DNA from: Halichondria panicea
Lineage: Eukaryota; Porifera; Demospongiae; Suberitida; Halichondriidae
DNA: 64,000 nucleotides
Direction of reading: 5' to 3'
NCBI RefSeq assembly: GCF_963675165.1
Contig: NC_087377.1
Location: 15,868,198-15,932,197 of the forward strand
Within the stretch, counting starts at the first letter, position 1. Each line of letters begins with the position of its first letter. The notes below the pieces were generated by a model. The model had not been told where the DNA came from. It ran no database searches and saw nothing but the letters and a program-made list of their open reading frames with translations. This document shows, in pieces, positions 5,558 to 56,985 of the stretch. Made by a program: the position numbers and the translations under genes.

Positions 5558-8283
5558 CTAATTAGCACTTATAGAGAAGAAATAAACGGTTTGAGTATAT
5601 GCACTTGTCCGTTCTCCGGCTACAATGACCTCTCCACTAGGAAGTACTGAGCATGTGCAGTAGTATCGTGCAGTAGGCAGGTCTCCCACTTTCACCCACC
5701 TCCTGGTGTCAGGCTGGTAGAGGTGGATCGATGATCTTGGGTTGCGTCTGTCGTCTCGTCCACCAACGGCTAATAGTGACCTCCCAATACTGAGAGGAAC
5801 TGACCACACGAATGGTACTTCCTGTAAGGTCTGCCAGAGAGTGGGTGTGTCCAGGTTCGAATGGGCCTTTGCAATCAGTTCATTGAGGTCGACGTGGTGC
5901 ACTGTCTTGGTTGCATACCCAGTGTGATCGTCCCCTCCCATTAGGTAGAGGGTGTTTCCTATGAGAGTCGATTTAAGTCCTGATCGTGGGTTAGGTAGTG
6001 ACTGAGCAATGTACCATCTTCTCGATGCCACGTCCAACACCTCCACAGAGGAGGTAGGTTCTTCATTACTCCCACCAGCTACAATGATGTGGTTGTTGAA
6101 GGAGACAGCTGTTGAGGAATGACGAGCAATGTTCATTGGTGGGTACGGGTGAGTCCATTCCCCTGACCCAAACACTGCAAGTTGATTGGTGTGTTCGTTG
6201 TTTCTTGAATCAAGTCCTCCCACCAGCACTAGTTGATTAGCGAGTGATGTCATAGCGAACCACTTGGCAGTGTACTCTGGTAGTTTGGTCCATTGATCTT
6301 GCTCGAGCTTCATCACTGTACACCTATTACGATCATCGCCTGCATCACCTCCACCAACATATACTGCGTCACCGATAACAACACTCTGTACCGTGTAGCC
6401 CATTTGAATTGGCATGTCTTTTCCTTTTCTCCATTTCAGAGTGAGTGGAGGTCTCAACTCTCTGGGAGGGGGACCCTGAATAATGAAGAGTGTAATTAGG
6501 ATAGTGTCTACTAACAAGCGAGTGTTACTTGTAGCAATAATTGCATGCACACTAAATCACTTTCTCTAATTAGCTTAAGAAGCCACGCCCACCAGTCTAA
6601 TAGAATGTACAGTACGATTATAAGAGATCAAAGCTTCTACTATAGCTCTGCAATAATATAATGGTGCATTTCGTCTCACCTGTCTCTGCTGTTGAATGAT
6701 GGCGTCTCTCCTGACCAGCTCAGCATCTTTGTGCTCAACCTGTTCCCTGTGTGCCTGTACAGAGGAACGTTGGTGAATTTTGAATTAAAACACAGACGTG
6801 AATATCATTAGTGGAAATTCTACAACAGAACGAGACAATCTTCACTAAAGGAAGTACATAATTATAGGCACACTCAAACGGATGTGTAGTTACGGCTTAA
6901 CACATGAGACAGCATCCATGCATGTTAAGGTACAATACTATTGTTGCTGTGGGAATCTCATTATCACACTACATGTACGCACCTTCTTGACTTGTTCAGT
7001 GTCCTTTGACTCCTTCTTTGTTGCCTCCACTGGGTCCGAGCCACTTTTCAGGTCAACATCTGCAGTCAAGTTATTATCTGGTTGAGTGTCCTCCCGAGGT
7101 TGTATCTGTAGAAACTTCACTAGATGATCAATTTCTCTGGGTTGAACTTCAAACTGTTCTTGTTGAGGAGTGGTCACTTCTTCTAGTCCATAAACTTGCT
7201 CAGCTTGAAGCCGATCGATAGATGCTTGTGAATGAGTGTCTTTCTCAGATACTTGATGTAAAAGTTGATTTACTTGAGTGTCCTTGGACTCCCTCTTTGT
7301 TGCCTCCACTGTGTCAGAGTCGCTTGTCAGTGAAGCATCTAAAGTAAAAGTTAAATCTTCAATAAGGAACTTTTTCCGAATAAAATTTCGGAATCGTACA
7401 AGACACAATTGACTCACAAATTATTTGCGGTAAAATGTAAAACACATTAATTATTTAATTAACTCACAGATGTCCCTGGCAGATGGTCTCCTCCTCATGT
7501 CTTCTTGCAAACAACTGTCGATAAGCTTCCTCAACCTGTGTGTGTGAGGGACCTGGGCAACATGGTCTAATCGATCTTCCACAGATTTGACTGTCTTCAG
7601 CTTGCAAACGATCTGTACCATAATCGCCCCAAGGGAAAACACATCCACGCTATTATCGTAAGTCTCCTTGTCCAATCGAATAGCCTCGAGAGGTAGATAC
7701 CCCATACGGTGACCAATGGCTGTGAGGGTGTGGCTAAGCTTGGAGGGATCGTATAGCCGTGACATGCCAAAGTCGGATATCTTTGCGACAGGCACTGGTC
7801 GTGTAAGCTTCAGCAAGACGTTATCACCACAGAGGTCACGGTGGATAATCTGCTTGCTGTGAATGTAGGCCAGACCACAAGCCATGTCTTTGGACAGGCT
7901 AATTTCACATTCGCTAGTGATAGACTCTTCATCAAGGCCGGAGAAATAGGATCTCAGATTGCAATCCATCAGCTCAACAACGAGGATTGTACCACCTGAT
8001 TTGGGGTGCTTGGCAGTCGACAAATACAGAACAACGTTTGGGTGCTGGAGTGACTGGAGATACTCACACTCACGATCAAATGCTTTGCTGGCTTCTTCAC
8101 TTTTACCGGCTGGGAAACCTGTCTGCATTTCTACAGCCTCGTAAATCAGAAGTTTGACCGCACAAATCTCGCTCCTGTAGCTGCCTTTGAAGACTGCTCC
8201 AAATGCACCTTTACCGAGAGGTTCGTCTAAGAAAACAGTCAAATCATCGTTGATCTTCTGGCGGTTTTGGTCAACTGTAAAAC

Positions 8284-32948: not shown

Positions 32949-35900
32949 TTAATCGCTTATACAAAAGAAATCAACTGTTTGAACATAATTACCATAAAAT
33001 GGTTTTGTCTCTCCTCCGGCTACAATGACCTCTCCACTAGGAAGTACTGAGCATGTGCAGCGGTATCGTGCAGTAGGCAGGTCTCCTACTTTCACCCACC
33101 TCCTGGTGTCAGGCTGGTAGAGGTGGATCGATGATCTTGGGTTGCGTCTGTCGTCCCGTCCACCAACGGCTAATAGTGACCTCCCAATACTGAGAGGAGC
33201 TGAATACACGAGTGGTACTTCCGGTAAGGTCTGCCAGAGAGTGGGTGTGTCCAGGTTGGAAAGGGCCTTTGCAATGAGTTCATTGAGGTCGACGTGGTGC
33301 ACTGTCTTGATTGAACTCCAAGTGTGATCCATCCCTCCCATTAGGTAGAGGGTGTTTCCCATGAGAGTCGATTTCAGCATTGATCGTGGGCTAGGTAGTG
33401 ACTGAGCAATGTACCATCTTCTTGATGCCACGTCCAACACCTCCACAGAGGAGGTACGTCCTTTATCATCATTCCCACCAGCTACAATGATGTGGTTGTT
33501 GAAGGAGACAGCTGTTGAGGAATCACGAGCAATGTTCATTGGTGGGTACGGGTGAGTCCATTCCCCTGCTTCAAAAACTGCAAGTTGATTGGTGCGTTTG
33601 TTGTTTCTTAGATCAAGTCCTCCCACCAGCACTAGTCGATTAGCGAGTGATGTCATAGCGAAGTACATGGCAGTGTACTCTGGTAGTTTGGTCCATTGAT
33701 CTTGCTCGAGCTTCATCACTGTACACCTGTCACGACCATTGTCTGCAAACCCTCCACCAACATACACCGTGTCACCGATAACAACACTCTGTGCCGTGGC
33801 ACCCATCTTGATTGGCATGTCTTTTCCTCTTCTCCATTTCAGAGTGAGTGGAGGTCTCAACTCTCTGGGAGGGGGACCCTGAATAATGAATGAGTGTAAT
33901 TAGGATAGTGTCTACTAACAAGCGAGTGTTACTTGTAGCAATAATTGCATGCACACTAAATCACTTTCTCTAATTAGCTTAAGAGGCCACGCCCACCAGT
34001 CTAATAGAATGTACAGTACGATTATAAGAGATCAAAGCTTCTACTATAGCTCTGCAATAATATAATGGTGCATTTTGTCTCACCAGTCTCAGCTGTTGAA
34101 TGATGGCGTCTCTCCTGACCAGCTCAGCATCTTTGTGCCCAATTTGTTCCCTGTGTGCCTGTACAGGGGAACGTTGGTGGAAATCAAACACAGACATGAA
34201 TAACATTAGAGAAAATTCTACAACAGAACGAGAACAAACAACAATTTCTGCTAAAGGAAGTACATAATTATAGGCACACTCAAACGGATGTGTAGTTACG
34301 GCTTAACACATGAGACAGCATCCATGCATGTTAAGGTACAATACTATTGTTGCTGTGGGAATCTCATTATCACACTACATGTACGCACCTTCTTGACTGG
34401 TTGAGTGTCCTTTGACTCCCTCTTTGTTGCCTCCACTGGGTCCGAGTCTCTTGTATCTAAAAGAGAGATTATAGGAAATCAAGTTGGCCAAATACTCACC
34501 TTTAGTGTCCTTCATTTGAGTGAAGGTTGTCGTGCTCGTTCTTGTGTCTTTAGACATCTCCTCAACACCTTCTAGTTTGAGTTTGTTCAGATCCCTGTAC
34601 GTGACATGTACATACTTGTAATTATTATAATAATACGAATATTATATTCATGTAATTTAAATTATATACCGTATAGTGTGAAATTTTCGAGGATTTCGTG
34701 GGTTAGAATTCTACACGAAAATTAAATATTGTTCTTTAATTAGAATTACCTGCTATCATGCAAATATTTAAAGGCGTGGCTTCCGGTAAGCAGTCATTCC
34801 GCGAACATTGCACAACGAAATGGCTTTTAGAGGCCAATCCACGAAATATAAGTGCCTCGAAAATTTCGCGCTATACGGTATATAGGGCCCATGCTTGTTA
34901 CGGTATAATTATTATAATTATGCCAGGAGTACGGGTATAATTATAGTGCCTCTTCAAGAACTTACTGTTCCAGCAGAAATGTCTCCACCTCATCCGTACT
35001 TCCACAGGTGAGAACTTTGACCCCCATCGCACTGAGAGCTGCCTGTACAGTAGGGGACACTGGGTAGATACACTTGGCAACAGCTACAGTGACGAGAAAG
35101 TGGAGCTCCAAGCAGCCTTGTTTGATTGAACAGAGTTGTAGCGCTGCTCTTTGTAGACCAAGGGCTTCAGCAATTCTTCGTGTCAGCCTTCTTACATACT
35201 CCAGTGTGGTTACTCGCGATCGCTCAGTGAGCTTGAGAACAAACACTTTAGCCGTTTTGATACGAGATTTTGAAGAGAAAGCTTCGGCCGGAACTTCAAA
35301 CACATTTCGCTTACAGAACTGATCAAGTGCAGAGCAATACTCACGCAGTTGTGTTTGGTCGTCTGGTGATCCCAGCAGCTCGATGAGGTACTGCACTATC
35401 TCATAGTTGAAGAAGGAGATGTAATCACGTAGAGTCATGAAGACCTGGGCCAAATTTTTGGCATTTTTGATTTCTTGCTTATCTTGTGGATCAAGCACTT
35501 TGACTCCAATCCCGTTGTTGAAAGCGTCGAGGCTGAGAACAAAATCTTTAATCTTATCCAATGGGATACGTTTTTCAAATGACTCTTGTATAATTAGAGT
35601 AAAAGCAGTGAACCTAATCATCATTTTCGTTGTATCCGCTATGAGCCGATCCTCCATTTCAATTCTATCATCCTCATCAAGGCTAGAGGTGTCAAGGTAC
35701 GGGAAACTGAAGGACGTCGGAGCCTCTGGTGGAGGTTGCTGGTGTGTGGGTGGAGAGAGTTGCGGCTGTTCAACACGGCTGGTCGCAGTCTTGTGACGCT
35801 CGTAACTATCGTGTAGCTTCTTGACAACATCGTCAGTAGAAGGGCCAGCGATGGCAGCAATAAAGCCGTGGAATACACTGGGATTGAGCTTAATTCGATG

Positions 35901-36113
35901 GATGATAGTATCCAGAATCTTTCGAGATTTATCCGAGTCCATAACTCCATTCAGTCTAGAGTACTCGAGAACTTCATCTGGTATGTAGCCATTGGAGAAG
36001 AGGCTATCAGCGTATGCAGCAGGTTGAGCTTTGAATGTGGACACCAATGCTTCAAAGTTATCTTGGAAGGACAGATACTCTGGAGAATGGTCGGGGGTTG
36101 CTTGAGTGGCCAT
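32949..36113 (-). CDS. CARD-like - helical domain - coil - kelch fusion protein, gene 3
   Basis: Exons 36113-34966, 34594-34500, 34456-34389, 34158-34084 and 33878-32949 join in frame for 771 aa. Exon 1 has no Death domain or kinase. Residues 1-100 look like a CARD-type helical bundle (EYLSFQDNFEALVSTF, IPDEVLEYSRLNG), and 118-138 is proline-rich. Residues 150-300 are a helical module (YISFFNYEIVQYLIELLG, YCSALDQFCKRNVFEVP), followed by a conserved block (LGLQRAALQLCSIKQGCLEL). I associate the last two with many sponge and cnidarian proteins of unknown function. A 32-residue exon links this to the same VEATKRESKD linker, 25-residue coil and kelch propeller (463-771) as genes 1 and 2. The kelch exon is close to gene 1 and keeps all GG motifs. 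It is probably a cytosolic adaptor recruiting a CARD partner. The start MATQATP is the first ATG of the open frame. Confidence 0.82.
34665..34880. mobile_element. MITE with ATACCGTATAG ends in gene 3 intron 1
   Basis: ATACCGTATAGTGTGAAATT pairs with AATTTCGCGCTATACGGTAT, and TTTTCGAGG repeats internally. A sister copy lies at 41684-41877, and single ends occur near 27468 and 43325. It sits in the intron that joins the CARD-like exon to the kelch half. Confidence 0.8.
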
Positions 36114-44886: not shown

Positions 44887-47800
44887 TCAGTTTCGGTCTG
44901 TATTGTCTACAATGAATCTACAAATGTCTGTAGCAGTGTCTCCTCTTCTCAGTCCTATGGTAATTTCCACCAAGGCCCTGAAGGTAGCTCTGGAAGGATT
45001 AACTCTTTGCCACGCTCTCAATGCATGAGCCACTCCAGCTTGATTGCCATAACGACTTGTAACATCAGTTACATCACCGAGGTCGGCTGGGGTGAGGTTG
45101 AGTCGATCCAGCAGGTTAGGAGTTGTGGATTGATTCACTGCATGAAGAAATAAAGAAATCAATAAAATGACAATTTACAATTTTCGTGATAGTCTTATTA
45201 AAAATGACACACAGGCGAATAAAAAAAATGCACACTGAAAATAGTTACCTACAATTTTCTTGGTAGTTTATATCAATCACTAAAAATGGCGAATAAAAAA
45301 AATGCACAAAGAGTTACCTGTGATGCTGTCAGCCAAATTGATGAGATCCACAGTGGGCTTTTTGAGAGCGTCTGACAGGAGACTCCATGTTACATGTTGT
45401 GTACTCAGGAGCTCAGCCAACATTTCACGAAAGCACAACCAATTATCTTCACGATACTTGATATTGATATTGGTGAGAACAGGATGAGTTATACCTAGAG
45501 CCAATCCCAGATTGAACCAGTGAGGGCTGGCACTTTCATGTAGTTTCTCGTAAACATGTTGTAGATCATTAATATTCAAAGCCTGTACAAAAACAACAAT
45601 CAACAAGGTTTCATTTGGTGAGGGTACCCCCTCGGAAATACATTCTAGAAGAAACTCAATGGGAATACAATTGAGGGGTTTCTGGTGAATAATATTCTTA
45701 ACAGGGCAGATATAGTAATGAATTCCTGGGGGTCGAACCCTCTAGATATATACATGTCATCAACACCCTAATATCATGCACGTGCACCATTAGCCTCAAT
45801 CCCAGGCCGCTCTTCCTCGACTGTTTGCGCATGCGCCACATAATCCCCAGAAATTGGGGACTCCGGATATTATCGTATAATGATCAGTAAAACAATGACG
45901 TCACAACAAACAAAAGTGGATTGAAGAAAGTGGATAGAAGTGTGATTGTGAAGGCTTCTAGCTCCTGTGATAGCATTCTGATAGCTATACCCTTAGCCTG
46001 CTATGTTAACAAAGAACTCACAGCCTGCAACAGTGTGGATGACAATCGTCTGAATGGAGGGAAGGCTGACAATAGCCTATATGGACAGGCCACGCCCATC
46101 TGACATTAACCTTGGTGAAAGTCTACATGTAGGCTCTATCAGAAGAAATAGCTGCTGTAACCAAACGTGTACAGCTCTGTCTCTAGCTAGCTAGCTAGCT
46201 ATATAGCTCTGTGTATGTAGTATTCTTTGTGTGTATTATGTTATTCAGGATATTTTTCGGGTAATATTTCAGAAACATTACGGGGAAATTATCCAATTAT
46301 TTTGCGCATGCGCAAACAGTCAGTAGCAGGCCTCCTTTTTGAGGCCTTGTGAAGGAGGCTAGTGCACCATTTGCTCCCCTTGCCAAAATGTCAGGAGGAT
46401 AAGTAGATACAAGATTTAGAGTACTGCCTACCTTGTGCACGTTCAGCAGGTGAGGAAATTTATCCGCGATTAGAATGATGTCACTCTCAGGGATTTCTTG
46501 ATCTAGTTGTTGGTCCCTCACTCCAGTCTTCTTACACACATCTTCCATTACTGTAACAGAGGACAATTCACCTCAAGAAAAATATTGGGCCAAAAAGTAA
46601 AAGTATTCTTTATAAGCGACATAAAAAACCAACCATTGCATGGAGATATTATAAACTGTTAAGTCTGAGTTGGTGCTACAATTACATCAACTACACAGTA
46701 TCAACTACACAGGCACTGAATTATACACGAGGATTAACATGATCAGGCACAGGACAAATTAATGATCATAACCTGTCGACCAAACGGCACTTTCTTACTG
46801 GTATGTTGATGTTGAATGATGGCGTCTCTCCTGACCAGCTCAGCATCTTTGTGCTCAATCCGTTCCCTGTATGCCTGTACAGGGGAACGTTGGTGGAAAT
46901 CTTTGAATTAAAACACTGACGTTAATATCGAAATTCTACAACAGGACGAGAACTGAAGAAACAATTTTTACTAAAGGAAGTACATAATTATAAGCACACT
47001 CAAACGGATGTGTAGTTACGGCTTAACACATGAGACAGCATCCATGCATGTTAAGGCACAATACTATTGTTGCTGTGGGAATCTCATTCACACACTACAT
47101 GTACGCACCTTCTTGACTGGTTGAGTGTCCTTTGACTCCCTCTTTGTTGCCTCCACTGTGTCCGAGCCACTTGTCAGGTCAACATCTGCAGTCAAGTTAT
47201 TATCTGGTTGAGTGTCCTCCAAAGGTTGTATCTGTAGAGACTTCACTAGATGATTAATTTCTCTGGGTTGAACTTCAAACTGTTCTTGTTGAGGAGTGAT
47301 CACTTCTTCTAGTCCACAAACTTGCTTAGCTTGAAGCCGATCGATAGTCATAGATGCTTGTGAATGAGTGTCTTTCTCAGATACTTGATGTTTTACTTGA
47401 GTGTCCTTGGACTCCCTCCTTGCTGCCTCCACTGTGTCAGAGTCACTTGTCAGTGAAGCATCTAAAGTAAAAGTTAAATCTTCAATAAGGAACTTTTTCT
47501 GAACAAAATTTCGAAATCGTACAAGATACAATTGACTCACAAATTATTTGCGGTATTATTATAATGTAAAACACATTAATTATTTAATTAACTCACAGAT
47601 GTCCCTGGCAGATGGTCTCCTCCTCATGTCTTCTTGCAAGCAACTGTCGATAAGCTTCCTCAACCTGTGTGTGTGAGGTATCTGGGCAACATGGAATGAT
47701 CGATCTTCCACAGATTTGATCGTCTTCAGCTTGCAAACAATCTGTACCATAATCACCCCAAGGGAAAAAACATCGACGCTATTATCGTAATTCTCCTTGC

Positions 47801-48413
47801 CCAATCGAATAGCCTCGAGAGGTAGATACCCCATACGGTGACCAATGGCTGTGAGGGTGTGGCTAAACTTGGAGGGATCGTATAGCCGTGACATGCCAAA
47901 GTCGGATATCTTTGCAACAGGCACTGGTCGTGTAAGCTTCAGCAAGACGTTATCACCACAGAGGTCACGGTGGATAATCTTCTTGCTGTGAATGTAGGCC
48001 AGACCACAAGCCATGTCTTTGGAGAGGCTAATTTCCCATTTGCTAGTGAGAGACTCTTCATCAAGGCTAGAGAAATAGGATCTCAGATTGCAATCCATCA
48101 GCTCAACAACGAGGATTGTACCACCTGATTTGGGATGCTTGGCAGTCGATAAATACAGAACAACGTTTGGGTGCTGGAGTGACTGGAGATACTCACACTC
48201 ACGATCAAATGCTTTGCTGGCTTCTTCACTTTTTCCTGTTGGGAAACCTGTCTGCATTTCTACAGCCTCGTAAATTAGAAGTTTGACTGCACAAATCTCT
48301 CCCTTGTAGCTACCTTTGAAGACTGCTCCAAATGCACCTTTACCTAGTAGCTCGTCTAGGAAAACAGTCAAATCATCGTTGATCTTCTGGTGATTTTCGT
48401 CAACTGTAAAAAC

Positions 48414-48448
<35 letters not shown>

Positions 48449-48865
48449 ATGAGAGGGACCCGGGTGAATATTATAGTAGCTAGCTAATAAACTAAGCATC
48501 ATGTATGAGATATGCATTCCTGTGCTGAACTAGTGCTCACCCTCTGACTTCACATCAGTAGGATTGCTTGGACCAGTAGACTGTAGATGATCTTTCTCGA
48601 TGGTCTTGGCTAAGTGAACGTGGCCTACGATAGGACTTGACAAAGCTTTGATAACATCTTCCCAGCTTCTCTCTTCACCCTTCAGCCATTCTTTCAAACC
48701 CTCACGATAGCAGTCATCAGGATTGTTGCTCCAATCTTTCCCAATTCTGTCAATGATATCCGAGGGTATTTTAAGAACTAGCAAGAAGTTTCTCCACTTG
48801 ATTCGAGCATCAAACGTAGCTATGTATAGTTTTCCTAGATCTGCTATTGTGAGATAGTCAGACAT
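44887..48865 (-). CDS. Death domain - kinase - coil - Death domain tail, gene 4 (kelch replaced)
   Basis: Seven exons join in frame for 731 aa: 48865-48541, 48403-47597, 47461-47109, 46874-46799, 46550-46432, 45582-45318 and 45137-44887. The Death domain (1-108), kinase (about 120-377, with glycine loop GKGAFGAV, CAVKLL, HRDLCGDN and DFG) and two-unit linker match gene 1. The coil exon uses a different donor (CATACCA/GTAAGA), because its end has diverged from the CAGCAGAGACAG/GTGAGA of genes 1 and 2. This shifts the phase so that it fits the next exon. Residues 521-560 (VRDQQLDQEIPESDIILIAD) begin one Death-type domain, and 649-731 (LTPADLGDV ... NPSRATFRALVEI) look like its second half. Between them, 561-648 encode another Death domain (SPHWFNLGLALGI). 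No kelch exon follows. It is likely a kinase adaptor with Death folds at both ends. The C-terminal part could be a separate gene, though the matching phases argue against it. Confidence 0.75.
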
Positions 48866-49285
48866 CTTATCTGTAGAGTGTGGAATAAGATAAACAATGA
48901 TATGAAGGTACATGTAATTATGTATAAATATTTGGTGTGTGCAAATTATATCATCAAAACCATAAATACCGTAGATCTATATGCAGAAAATAAAACAGTG
49001 CTGTCTGCACTTACTGATAATAATCCAGAGCTACAGTATCTTCACAGCTTGATACCAGGCACGATACAGAAATACAGGACAACAGCTAGCTCAGCTACAA
49101 CGAGACCCTCCCTCTTTCTCTGCAGAATAAACAATAGCTGTCACGTGTGATAACATTGCTAAACCACGTGGCTGGTCTTTCACTTCCATAGCTAGCTAGC
49201 TAGAGAGAAGAAGAAATTGCGCTGTCAATCTTGAAGCTCTGAGCAAGTGGTCAAACTATTTGTCTGTATTGGTGGAGGCTGAAGA
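48866..49285. promoter_or_regulatory. Divergent promoter of gene 4 and USF copy D, two E-boxes
   Basis: This 420-nt interval is the least disturbed copy of the shared promoter. CACGTG occurs at 49142-49147 and 49165-49170, 23 nt apart (about two helical turns), roughly 120 nt before the USF-D ATG. An (AGCT)n run follows at 49190-49203. USF factors bind CACGTG, so auto- or cross-regulation is a reasonable inference. Confidence 0.55.
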
Positions 49286-54598: not shown

Positions 54599-56985
54599 TT
54601 GTCAGTCCTCCGGCTACAATGACCTCTCCACTAGGAAGTACTGAGCATGTACAGCAGTATCGTGCAGTGGGCAGGTCTCCCACTTTCACCCACCTCCTGG
54701 TGTCAGGCTGGTAGAGGTAGATCGATGAACTTGGGTTGGCTCTGTCGTCTCGTCCACCAACGGCTAATAGTGACCTCCCAATACTGAGAGGAGCTGACCA
54801 CTCGAGTGGTGCTTCCTGTAAGGTCTGCCAGAGAGTGGGTGTGTCCAGGTTCGAATGGGCCTTTGCAACGAGTTCATTGAGGTCGACGTGGTACACTGTC
54901 TTGGTTGCACTCAGAGTGTGATCGAACCCTCCCATTAGGTAGAGGGTGTTTCCTATGAGAGTTGATTTCAGTTTTGATCGTTGGTTAGGTAGTGACTGAG
55001 CAATGTACCATCTTCTTGATGCCACATCCAACACCTCCACATGCAGAGGAGGAGGCACGTCTTTTATCATCATACCCACCAGCTACAATGATGTGGTTGT
55101 TGAAGGAGACAGCTGTTGAGGAAGAACGAGCAATGTTCATTGGTGGGTACGGGTGAGTCCATTCCCCTGATTCAAACACTGCAAGCTGATTGGTACGTTT
55201 GTTGTTTTTTGGATTACTTCCTCCCACCAACACTAGTCGATTAGTGAGTGATGTCATAGCGAAGTACTTGGCAGTGTACTCTGGTAGTTTGGTCCATTGA
55301 TCTTGCTCGAGCTTCAACACTGTATATATGTCACGATCATTGACTGCAAACCCTCCACCAACATACACCGTGTCACCGATAACAACACTCTGTACCGAGT
55401 CACCCATGTGGATTGGCATGTCTTTTCCTCTTCTCCATTTCAGAGTGAGTGGAGGTCTCAACTCTCTGGGAGGGGGACCCTGAATAATGAATGAGTGTAA
55501 TTAGGATAGTGTCTACTAACAAGCGAGTGTTACTTGCAGCAATAATTGCATGCACACTAAATCACTTTCTCTAATTAGCTTAAGAGGCCACGCCCACCAG
55601 TCTAATAGAATGTACAGTACGATTATAAGAGATCAAAGCTTCTATTATAGCTCTGCAATAATATAATGGTGCATTTTGTCTCATCTGTCTCTGCTGTTGA
55701 ATGATGGCGTCTCTCCTGACCAGCTCAGAATCTTTGTGTTCCCTGTGAGCCTGTACAGGGGAACGTTGGTGAATTTTGAATTAAAACACAGACGTGAATA
55801 TCATTAGTGGAAATTCTACAACAGAATGAGAACAAACAACAATTTCCGCTAAAGGAAGTACATAATTATAGGCACACTCAAACGGATGTGTAGTTACGGC
55901 TTAACACATGAGACAGCATCCATGCATGTTAAGGTACAATACTATTGTTGCTGTGGGAATCTCATTATCACACTACATGTACGCACCTTCTTGACTGGTT
56001 GAGTGTCCTTTGACTCCCTCTTTGTTGCCTCCACTGTGTCTAAGCCCCTCGTCAGGTCCACATCTAAAGTAAAAGAAAATCCATATCAACATTAATAGAC
56101 GGATACGATTTTTTCGTTAGGGTTACGGTTAGCTAAAACGTAAAACACATACTTATCATTGACTCACAGATGTCCCTGGCAGATGGTCTCCTCCTCATGT
56201 CTTCTTGCAAACAACTGTCGATAAGCTTCCTCAACCTGTGTGTGTGAGGTATCTGGGCAACATGGAATGATCGATCTTCCACAGATTTGATCGTCTTCAG
56301 CTTGCAAACAATCTGCATCATAATCGCCCCAAGAGAGAACACATCCAAGCTATTATCGTAATTATCCTTGTCCAATCGAATAGCCTCGAGAGGTAGATAC
56401 CCCATACGGTGACCAACGGCCGTGAGGGTGTGGCTAAGCTTGGAGGGATCGTATAGCCGTGACATGCCAAAGTCAGAAATCTTTGCAACAGGCACTGGTC
56501 GTGTAAGCTTCAGCAAGACGTTATCGCCACAGAGGTCACGATGGATAATCTGCTTGCTGTGAATGTAGGCCAGACCACAAGCCATGTCTTTGGACAGGCT
56601 AATTTCATATTCGCTAGTGATAGACTCTTCACCAAGGCCGGAGAAATAGGATCTCAGATTGCAATCCATCAGCTCAACAACGAGGATTGTACCACCTGAT
56701 TTGGGATGCTTAGTAGTCGACAAATACAGAACAACGTTTAGGTGCTGGAGTGACTGGAGATACTCACACTCACGATCAAATGCTTTGCTAGCTTCTTCAC
56801 TTTTACCGGCTGGGAAACCTGTCTGCATTTCTACAGCCTCGTAAATCAAAAGTTTGACCGCACAAATCTCGCCCCTGTAGCTGCCTTTGAAGACTGCTCC
56901 AAATGCACCTTTACCGAGAGGTTCGTCTAAGAAAACAGTTAAATCATCGTTGATCTTCTGGCGGTTTTGGTCAACTGTAGAACAT

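Follow-up and report, generated by a model that had tools for sequence, protein, structure and literature searches.

Gene 3 and its exons

In the genome of the demosponge Halichondria panicea, a five-exon gene, here called gene 3, lies on the minus strand at positions 36113-32949 of a stretch of 64,000 nucleotides (C1:15,868,198-15,932,197; contig NC_087377.1), which is referred to as the window. Its predicted product combines a putatively CARD-like N-terminus with a C-terminal kelch propeller, which was also found in the neighbouring genes 1 and 2, there behind Death-like and kinase parts. The joined exons of gene 3 comprise 2316 nt and encode 771 aa followed by a stop. All introns are of the GT-AG type and the reading frame is open throughout, which confirms the five exons, the phases (CA/G, G/AT and twice phase 0) and the 771 residues in frame put forward in an earlier sequence-only reading of this DNA. 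The following features were assigned:

34966..36113, minus strand: exon 1 (382 codons + 2 nt), with a putative CARD-like domain, a helical FFNY region and a putative TRADD-N-like domain; 12 full-length copies in the array
35778..36113, minus strand: CARD-like domain, residues 1-112, by a profile-profile match below the Pfam cut-offs
35013..35246, minus strand: TRADD-N-like domain, residues ~290-367, with invariant Gly-Cys 333-334, by its motif and PF20694 matches below the cut-off
34500..34594, minus strand: exon 2, linker, 95 nt, found only beside exon 1 in the window and 20 loci searched
34389..34456, minus strand: exon 3, linker common to the Death-like-kinase genes, 68 nt
34084..34158, minus strand: exon 4, coil common to the Death-like-kinase genes, 75 nt
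32949..33878, minus strand: exon 5, six-bladed kelch propeller of 309 aa, stop included (Pfam Kelch_1, 3.5e-28; solved kelch-type propellers, best E 8e-21)
33060..33800, minus strand: hypervariable codons 27-273 of the kelch exon, including the GG+1 codons 44, 88, 136, 183 and 241; the sixth (290) is just outside

Six GG motifs, together with the matches to Pfam and PDB sequences, identify the propeller as six-bladed kelch by sequence.

The search of the assembly (131 Mb, 39 contigs) with exon 1 yielded 118 matches, with 108 of 258 candidates scored. Among the matches listed, 12 full-length copies (87-100% aa identity) were located in a tandem array on C1. All 12 had a kelch exon on the same strand 0.84-2.6 kb downstream, and in each the spliced frame was open (742-771 aa) with GT/AG at every intron. 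In two of them no exon 4 was found, and exon 3 runs in frame into exon 5. Since the array copies are recent duplicates, they show maintenance of the gene and not 12 independent origins. Outside the array, six places with at least 68% identity to exon 1 (C1 near 10.99 Mb, C6 and C3) were present among the matches listed. An open full-length exon 1 occurred in one of these (C6:2609118), and the nearby kelch exon has an internal stop.

The frame of exon 1 closes at most 4 bp from the exon end, where a TAA overlaps the donor GTAAGT, and an unspliced form would therefore be a complete protein too. This would fit a stand-alone gene with its own stop right after the donor, the kelch exon being spliced from kinase exons only. 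Such an arrangement is very unlikely, as all 12 copies retain the donor as well as an exon 2 that can be aligned from end to end (95 nt). Furthermore, for 11 of the 12 CARD-type kelch exons no kinase exon was listed (best 125 of 757 candidates) within 6 kb upstream; for the twelfth, the kinase exon is 5.9 kb away, beyond the CARD exon. Because exon 2, in the window and the 20 loci searched, was confined to pieces with exon 1, the switch between the two classes of genes lies between exons 2 and 3.

The kelch array and its two signalling classes

Among the 126 kelch exons listed (the best of 459 candidates), 104 form a tandem array at C1 15.48-17.39 Mb, and 123 of the 126 have no internal stop. 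The kelch exons of the array were compared with the listed kinase exons and with 15 of the 118 exon-1 matches as CARD-type exons. A CARD-type exon lies within 6 kb upstream of 12 of the 104 kelch exons, and a kinase exon upstream of 61. The remaining 31 have neither of the listed exons in that range, and for these a third class of first exon is possible. The earlier view that one propeller serves two classes in one cluster thus holds. Its statement that gene 3 shares its last three exons with the neighbouring genes was likewise borne out: over the matched stretches, the nucleotide identities of exons 3, 4 and 5 were 92, 94.5 and 92% to gene 1, and 94, 90 and 91% to gene 2. The first exons of the neighbours had been read as Death plus kinase. 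The kinase is clear in Pfam (4.4e-37), whereas the Death part is weak: of two Death-like exons scanned, one matched Death at E=0.22 and the other gave no match.

Framework distances amounted to 0.038 within the CARD-type, 0.044 within the kinase-type and 0.044 between the classes, and a single clade of CARD-type kelch exons was rejected only when all codons were used (approximately unbiased test, p-AU 0.011). An initial exon shuffle is plausible, and the later sharing of kelch sequence between the classes is what the data address more directly.

Identity of exon 1

In the Pfam scan, exon 1 matched no family at E ≤ 1, CARD included, and scans of relatives yielded nothing above a cut-off within the module. 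The proposal of a CARD-like first exon was examined by comparisons of profiles. The alignment of the CARD region including the bridging homologue L076 (A4) was compared by hhalign with four Pfam-positive CARDs of the same genome, which gave E=7e-4 over 70 columns at an HH probability of only 26%, and none of 150 column shuffles scored as high. L076 is a remote homologue, the locus of which matches exon 1 over residues 11-361, and it was put into A4 on account of its own sub-threshold CARD match. When it was omitted (A2), the match to CARDs was weak (E=0.059; 7 of 150 shuffles as high). When A4 was compared with Death-like domains, 21 columns were matched at E=0.086, a score reached by 2 of 150 shuffles. 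By this transitive profile test, residues 1-112 of gene 3 may be regarded as remotely CARD-like, below the Pfam cut-offs.

The FFNY-type helical module, which had also been noted before, is present in exon 1, but its C-terminal part is rather TRADD-N-like. The exon-1 search revealed many relatives of the module in the genome, and in an alignment of 12 rows (A1) Gly333-Cys334 in its C-terminal part was invariant in all rows. As described in the text of Kaur et al. 2021 (PMC8195603), Ser, or in some cases Cys, comes after a small residue in the beta2-beta3 turn of TRADD-N. The Gly-Cys pair agrees with this motif, with the strand positions of gene 3 predicted only. Exon 1 of gene 3 itself matched neither PF20694 nor PF13820. 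One relative, L036, matched the Pfam family TRADD-like_N (PF20694) at E=0.019, which is below the cut-off. In the whole genome, PF20694 gave eight matches (best E 0.04, none over the cut-off), seven of which are located inside homologues of the exon-1 module, toward the C-terminal end. Most of these are paralogues on C5 and therefore do not represent seven independent matches; one of 14 control genomes was also matched, below the cut-off. A search of the genome with PF13820, made without a positive control, gave no match. A remote TRADD-N-like domain, below the Pfam cut-offs, is a candidate for the C-terminal part of this module.

Variable positions of the kelch propeller

For the comparison of the propellers, 30 kelch exons (28 distinct) were used, 12 of the CARD-type and 18 of the kinase-type (two from the window and 16 picked by position); the split exon at 54599-55479 of the window and the copies outside the array (L051, L052, L053 and L055) were left out. 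Of the 309 positions, 125 were invariant and 185 had an entropy below 0.3 bit. The most variable residues were those at GG+1 of all six blades (codons 44, 88, 136, 183, 241 and 290), with ranks of 1, 2, 3, 18, 21 and 29 among the 309 columns, and adjoining loop sites were variable too. All six are among the top 30 (P=5e-7; rank test p=2e-5), a pattern noticed by eye ahead of testing and a cut chosen afterwards. The 28 distinct exons showed 26 different 18-residue combinations.

The position of these sites on the propeller was deduced, in an independent test, from the known contacts of KLHL12. For KLHL12 bound to DVL1, nine propeller contacts are named in the text of PMC7333892. They were mapped onto the kelch exon of gene 3 with an offset of 266, derived from residue types (6 of 6 agree), and six of the nine lay in the aligned stretch. 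The corresponding columns rank 2, 3, 4, 5, 18 and 38 of 309 in variability, and their mean was reached by none of 200,000 random sets drawn from the aligned stretch. By analogy with KLHL12, the propellers of the array thus appear to differ mainly at residues that would touch a bound partner.

Since the variable sites include the degron-binding sites of KLHL12, the array might represent a diversified family of ubiquitin ligases or adaptors, the kelch face of which picks internal substrates as in KLHL proteins, so that the differences would reflect divergence of substrates and not non-self. This is quite unlikely. No BTB/BACK match was found by Pfam in the reading frames of exon 1 or the kelch exon. 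Moreover, the propeller pocket is where conservation is highest in KEAP1, KLHL2, KLHL3, KLHL12 and K13, the most conserved positions being clustered there according to the text of PMC6650413, which is the opposite of what was observed in the array.

Selection on the kelch exon and exon 1

Ratios of nonsynonymous to synonymous change (dN/dS) were obtained by simple counting over related, recombining sequences. In a split-sample design, 25 sites at a time were picked from one class and evaluated on the other, with 10 and 18 distinct exons. At the variable sites of the kelch exon, dN/dS was 3.0 and 3.6, in comparison to 0.57 and 0.66 elsewhere. The dN at these sites (0.60 and 0.61) is about nine times the dS of the rest of the exon (0.067 and 0.069). 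For exon 1 (11 distinct sequences of 12), the CARD-like part had a dN/dS of 0.09 and the FFNY/TRADD-N part one of 0.48.

These values also bear on the view that the array is an ordinary tandem expansion, in which a single fusion of exon 1 and kelch was duplicated and the kelch exon varies because the constraint on surface loops is relaxed, with no recognition involved. The copies are indeed recent segmental duplicates, and the 12 intact ones are not 12 independent events; in addition, an open full-length exon 1 is present in only one of the six places outside the array. Relaxed constraint, however, cannot raise dN to roughly nine times the dS of the remaining exon, nor can it focus change on the ligand-contact register, and the best-scoring kelch exons are almost free of internal stops. 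An expansion of this kind alone is therefore unlikely.

Differences between close pairs

L040, a copy of gene 3 (L039) located at C1:17236123, is free of substitutions relative to it in the 3758 bp aligned upstream of the kelch exon. The kelch exons themselves differ by 25 bases, which are clustered in codons 28, 43-48, 136, 140, 264, 273 and 290-309; past codon 309 the sequences are unrelated. Of the nine codons changed ahead of 289, six belong to the 40 most variable, as determined with this pair left out (P=3e-4). A patch of six substitutions of L040 (codons 43-48) is present as a whole in the kinase-class exon L062, which matches L040 over codons 34-66. Likewise, the L039 version of codons 136-140 is found in the kinase-class exon L060, with a match that spans codons 121-162. 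Among the kelch exons compared, none was found to be such a donor for codons 28 and 264-273. In a second pair, L043/L044, the kelch exons differed by 8.5% and the first exons by 0.26%. The pattern fits short-tract gene conversion combined with selection, and may reflect templated exchange.

The kelch exons of the array are arranged in two halves: at C1:15.48-16.14 Mb, 54 of 54 listed kelch exons are on the minus strand, and at 16.71-17.39 Mb, 50 of 50 are on the plus strand. Such opposite halves on one contig, together with the near identity of some pairs, could point to an assembly artefact in part of the array, with unmerged haplotypes or mis-joined arms and with alleles as near-identical pairs. 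This seems rather improbable, as the mid-points of the pairs differ (L039/L040 16.57, L047/L048 16.25 and L043/L044 16.69 Mb), and the close pairs L045/L046 and L049/L050 each lie within one array half. For the same difference in mid-points, a palindromic mis-join of the two halves was rejected. If the pairs were alleles, they would represent polymorphism at pocket codons, which would strengthen a role in recognition.

Proposed function of gene 3

Gene 3 probably encodes an intracellular recognition receptor with a diversifying kelch sensor that is common to two signalling classes. This proposal builds on the computed gene structure, the retention of 12 copies, the conserved N-terminus, the hypervariability in the contact register and the kelch patches common to both classes. 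If gene 3 is expressed, the conserved CARD-like and TRADD-N-like end would serve in signalling, and the short linker and the coil would tie it to the kelch sensor. The ligand bound in the propeller pocket would vary between genes; it could be an effector, a peptide of a microbe or virus, or a marker of self or allogeneic tissue. Binding may then cluster the protein via its coil, CARD-like and TRADD-N-like parts, so that oligomerisation would lead to a death-fold signalling complex with a role in immunity or allorecognition. The sister genes would carry the same kelch sensor on a Death-like and kinase end, which is presumably RIPK/IRAK-like by analogy. Diversification of the sensor pool could proceed through selection on the pocket and through the exchange of short tracts between many kelch exons, also from one class to the other.

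Several points weigh against this proposal. The CARD and TRADD-N assignments of exon 1 are both below the Pfam cut-offs; CARD was not among the 11 Pfam families matched by the 12 rows of A1, some of which do not include the CARD-like region, and profile searches of exon 1 against solved structures gave chance-level matches only, with no death-fold or TRADD chain. The kelch exon was far more changed than exon 1 in only two of six close pairs (L039/L040 and L043/L044), and no such contrast was found in L045/L046, L046/L047, L047/L048 and L049/L050. With framework codons only, a single clade of CARD-type kelch exons was not rejected (p-AU 0.133). The CARD label also clusters on the kelch tree more than in all but one of 500 shuffles, which near-copies can cause. 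Synonymous change is raised at the variable codons as well (dS 0.20 and 0.17 in comparison to about 0.07 elsewhere), and therefore a local effect of mutation or conversion adds to selection. The simple counting of dN/dS and the choice of the top-30 cut after inspection belong to the same side.

Foreign tissue is rejected by sponges, which also harbour dense microbes, yet little is known of their intracellular recognition molecules. It is conceivable, as a tentative extension, that the array is a non-self or allorecognition system. It would comprise about 100 or more kelch sensors with one framework and a variable pocket, swapped through the conversion of short tracts between two different death-signalling ends (CARD/TRADD-N and Death/kinase). 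In animals, it would then parallel the HET-D/HET-E repertoire of fungi, from which it would have arisen independently and with a different propeller. If the proposed recognition role holds, it names a set of candidate receptors whose variable pocket and two outputs are defined and whose mode of diversification is visible. Recognition in an early-branching animal could then be tested directly, through binding assays and surveys of polymorphism, and kelch would be a further case of a beta-propeller that serves as a diversifying recognition face.

Neighbouring genes and related loci

Further features were observed in the window. At 46810-48976 (minus strand), Death-like, kinase and linker/coil exons are present, and no kelch exon was found before the next one at 33.9 kb; this gene is possibly truncated or belongs to another class. 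A different Death-like open reading frame, recognised by eye, is located at 45280-45741. The kelch exon at 54599-55479 (minus strand) is split into two overlapping open reading frames by a frame change near 55040-55048 and represents either a decayed copy or an assembly error. The linker of exon 3 matches twice in each of the Death-like-kinase genes at 6983-7327 and 47109-47450 (minus strand).

Elsewhere in the genome, modules of the exon-1 type are preceded by a Death-like open reading frame and followed by an ankyrin-like one (by eye) or by SH2, as judged from the order of the reading frames in unspliced models. At L058 (C7:79500-88500), a Death-like reading frame (Pfam Death E=0.015, below the cut-off), a TRADD-N-like module and SH2 (E=2.5e-14) follow on one strand, and the same TRADD-N-like module thus has another C-terminus. 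L057 (C14:252000-261900) contains two tandem CARD-TRADD-N-like genes, one of them short, followed by caspase-like reading frames on the same strand (by eye); one of the two caspase-like frames was scanned and gave no Pfam match at E ≤ 1. The locus L059 (C2:659062), cathepsin-like by eye, had one exact match to a motif that we take to be of the silicatein type (Ser for the cathepsin Cys), and the reversed control had 0.

Comparison with known systems

The earlier suggestion of an undescribed sponge family may apply to the kelch branch only. Proteins with a death fold, TRADD-N (NCOA6 clade) and variable C-termini are already known from the sponge Amphimedon, where they form a large lineage-specific expansion, according to the text of Kaur et al. 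2021 (eLife, PMC8195603). Gene 3 resembles them in its putative N-terminal death-fold unit (CARD-like), its putative TRADD-N-like domain and a variable C-terminal part (kelch), and C-termini with SH2 (Pfam) and ankyrin-like parts (by eye) stand beside the module in the Halichondria genome too, as described for Amphimedon. It differs in that its C-terminus is a kelch propeller common to a kinase class, with variation focused on the pocket; the word kelch is absent from the main text of that paper. Neither the kelch version of these proteins nor the hypervariable face was found in the open-licence PMC literature as far as its accessible text goes. In two tables of PMC6208332, a 'Kelch motif containing gene' appears among sponge genes responsive to microbial patterns, without architecture.

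In the same work on TRADD-N (PMC8195603), proteins of Branchiostoma with DED, TRADD-N and WD40 are described, for which the authors note high variability of the propeller and suggest recombination. Like these, gene 3 is predicted to combine a death fold, TRADD-N, a linker and a beta-propeller, but WD40 and DED occur there and kelch and CARD-like parts here, in another animal group. The section on the Branchiostoma propellers includes no analysis of pocket sites.

The bona fide NLRs of the sponge Dysidea avara, as presented in PMC12909245, share with gene 3 a death-fold N-terminus, which is putative in gene 3, an expanded family and a C-terminus presumed to sense. Gene 3 had no NACHT or LRR match in Pfam in the frames of exon 1 or the kelch exon, the unscanned exons 2-4 measuring 95, 68 and 75 nt; the main text of the Dysidea paper contains neither 'kelch' nor 'TRADD'. 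With KLHL12 and KEAP1, the array shares the type of propeller and the contact register (tested for KLHL12), whereas BTB/BACK is not matched in gene 3 and the pocket, conserved there (PMC6650413, in its text), is the most variable part here.

In fungi, diversifying selection acts on one face of the WD40 propellers of HET-D/HET-E (hnwd), at residues of the d-a loop and b-c turn, as reported in the text of PMC1805685 (presumably Paoletti et al. 2007). Members of the fungal family exchange propeller sequence, as those of the gene 3 family appear to do, and both families show an excess of amino-acid change on one face, which in the family of gene 3 was deduced from KLHL12. In contrast, the fungal proteins carry NACHT and HET domains instead of CARD/TRADD-N, their function in non-self recognition is proven, and whole WD repeats are exchanged there, whereas patches inside one six-blade exon are concerned here. 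By analogy, and as far as the texts of these sources go, the closest architecture would thus be that of the Amphimedon death-fold and TRADD-N family, and the closest working principle that of HET-D/HET-E.

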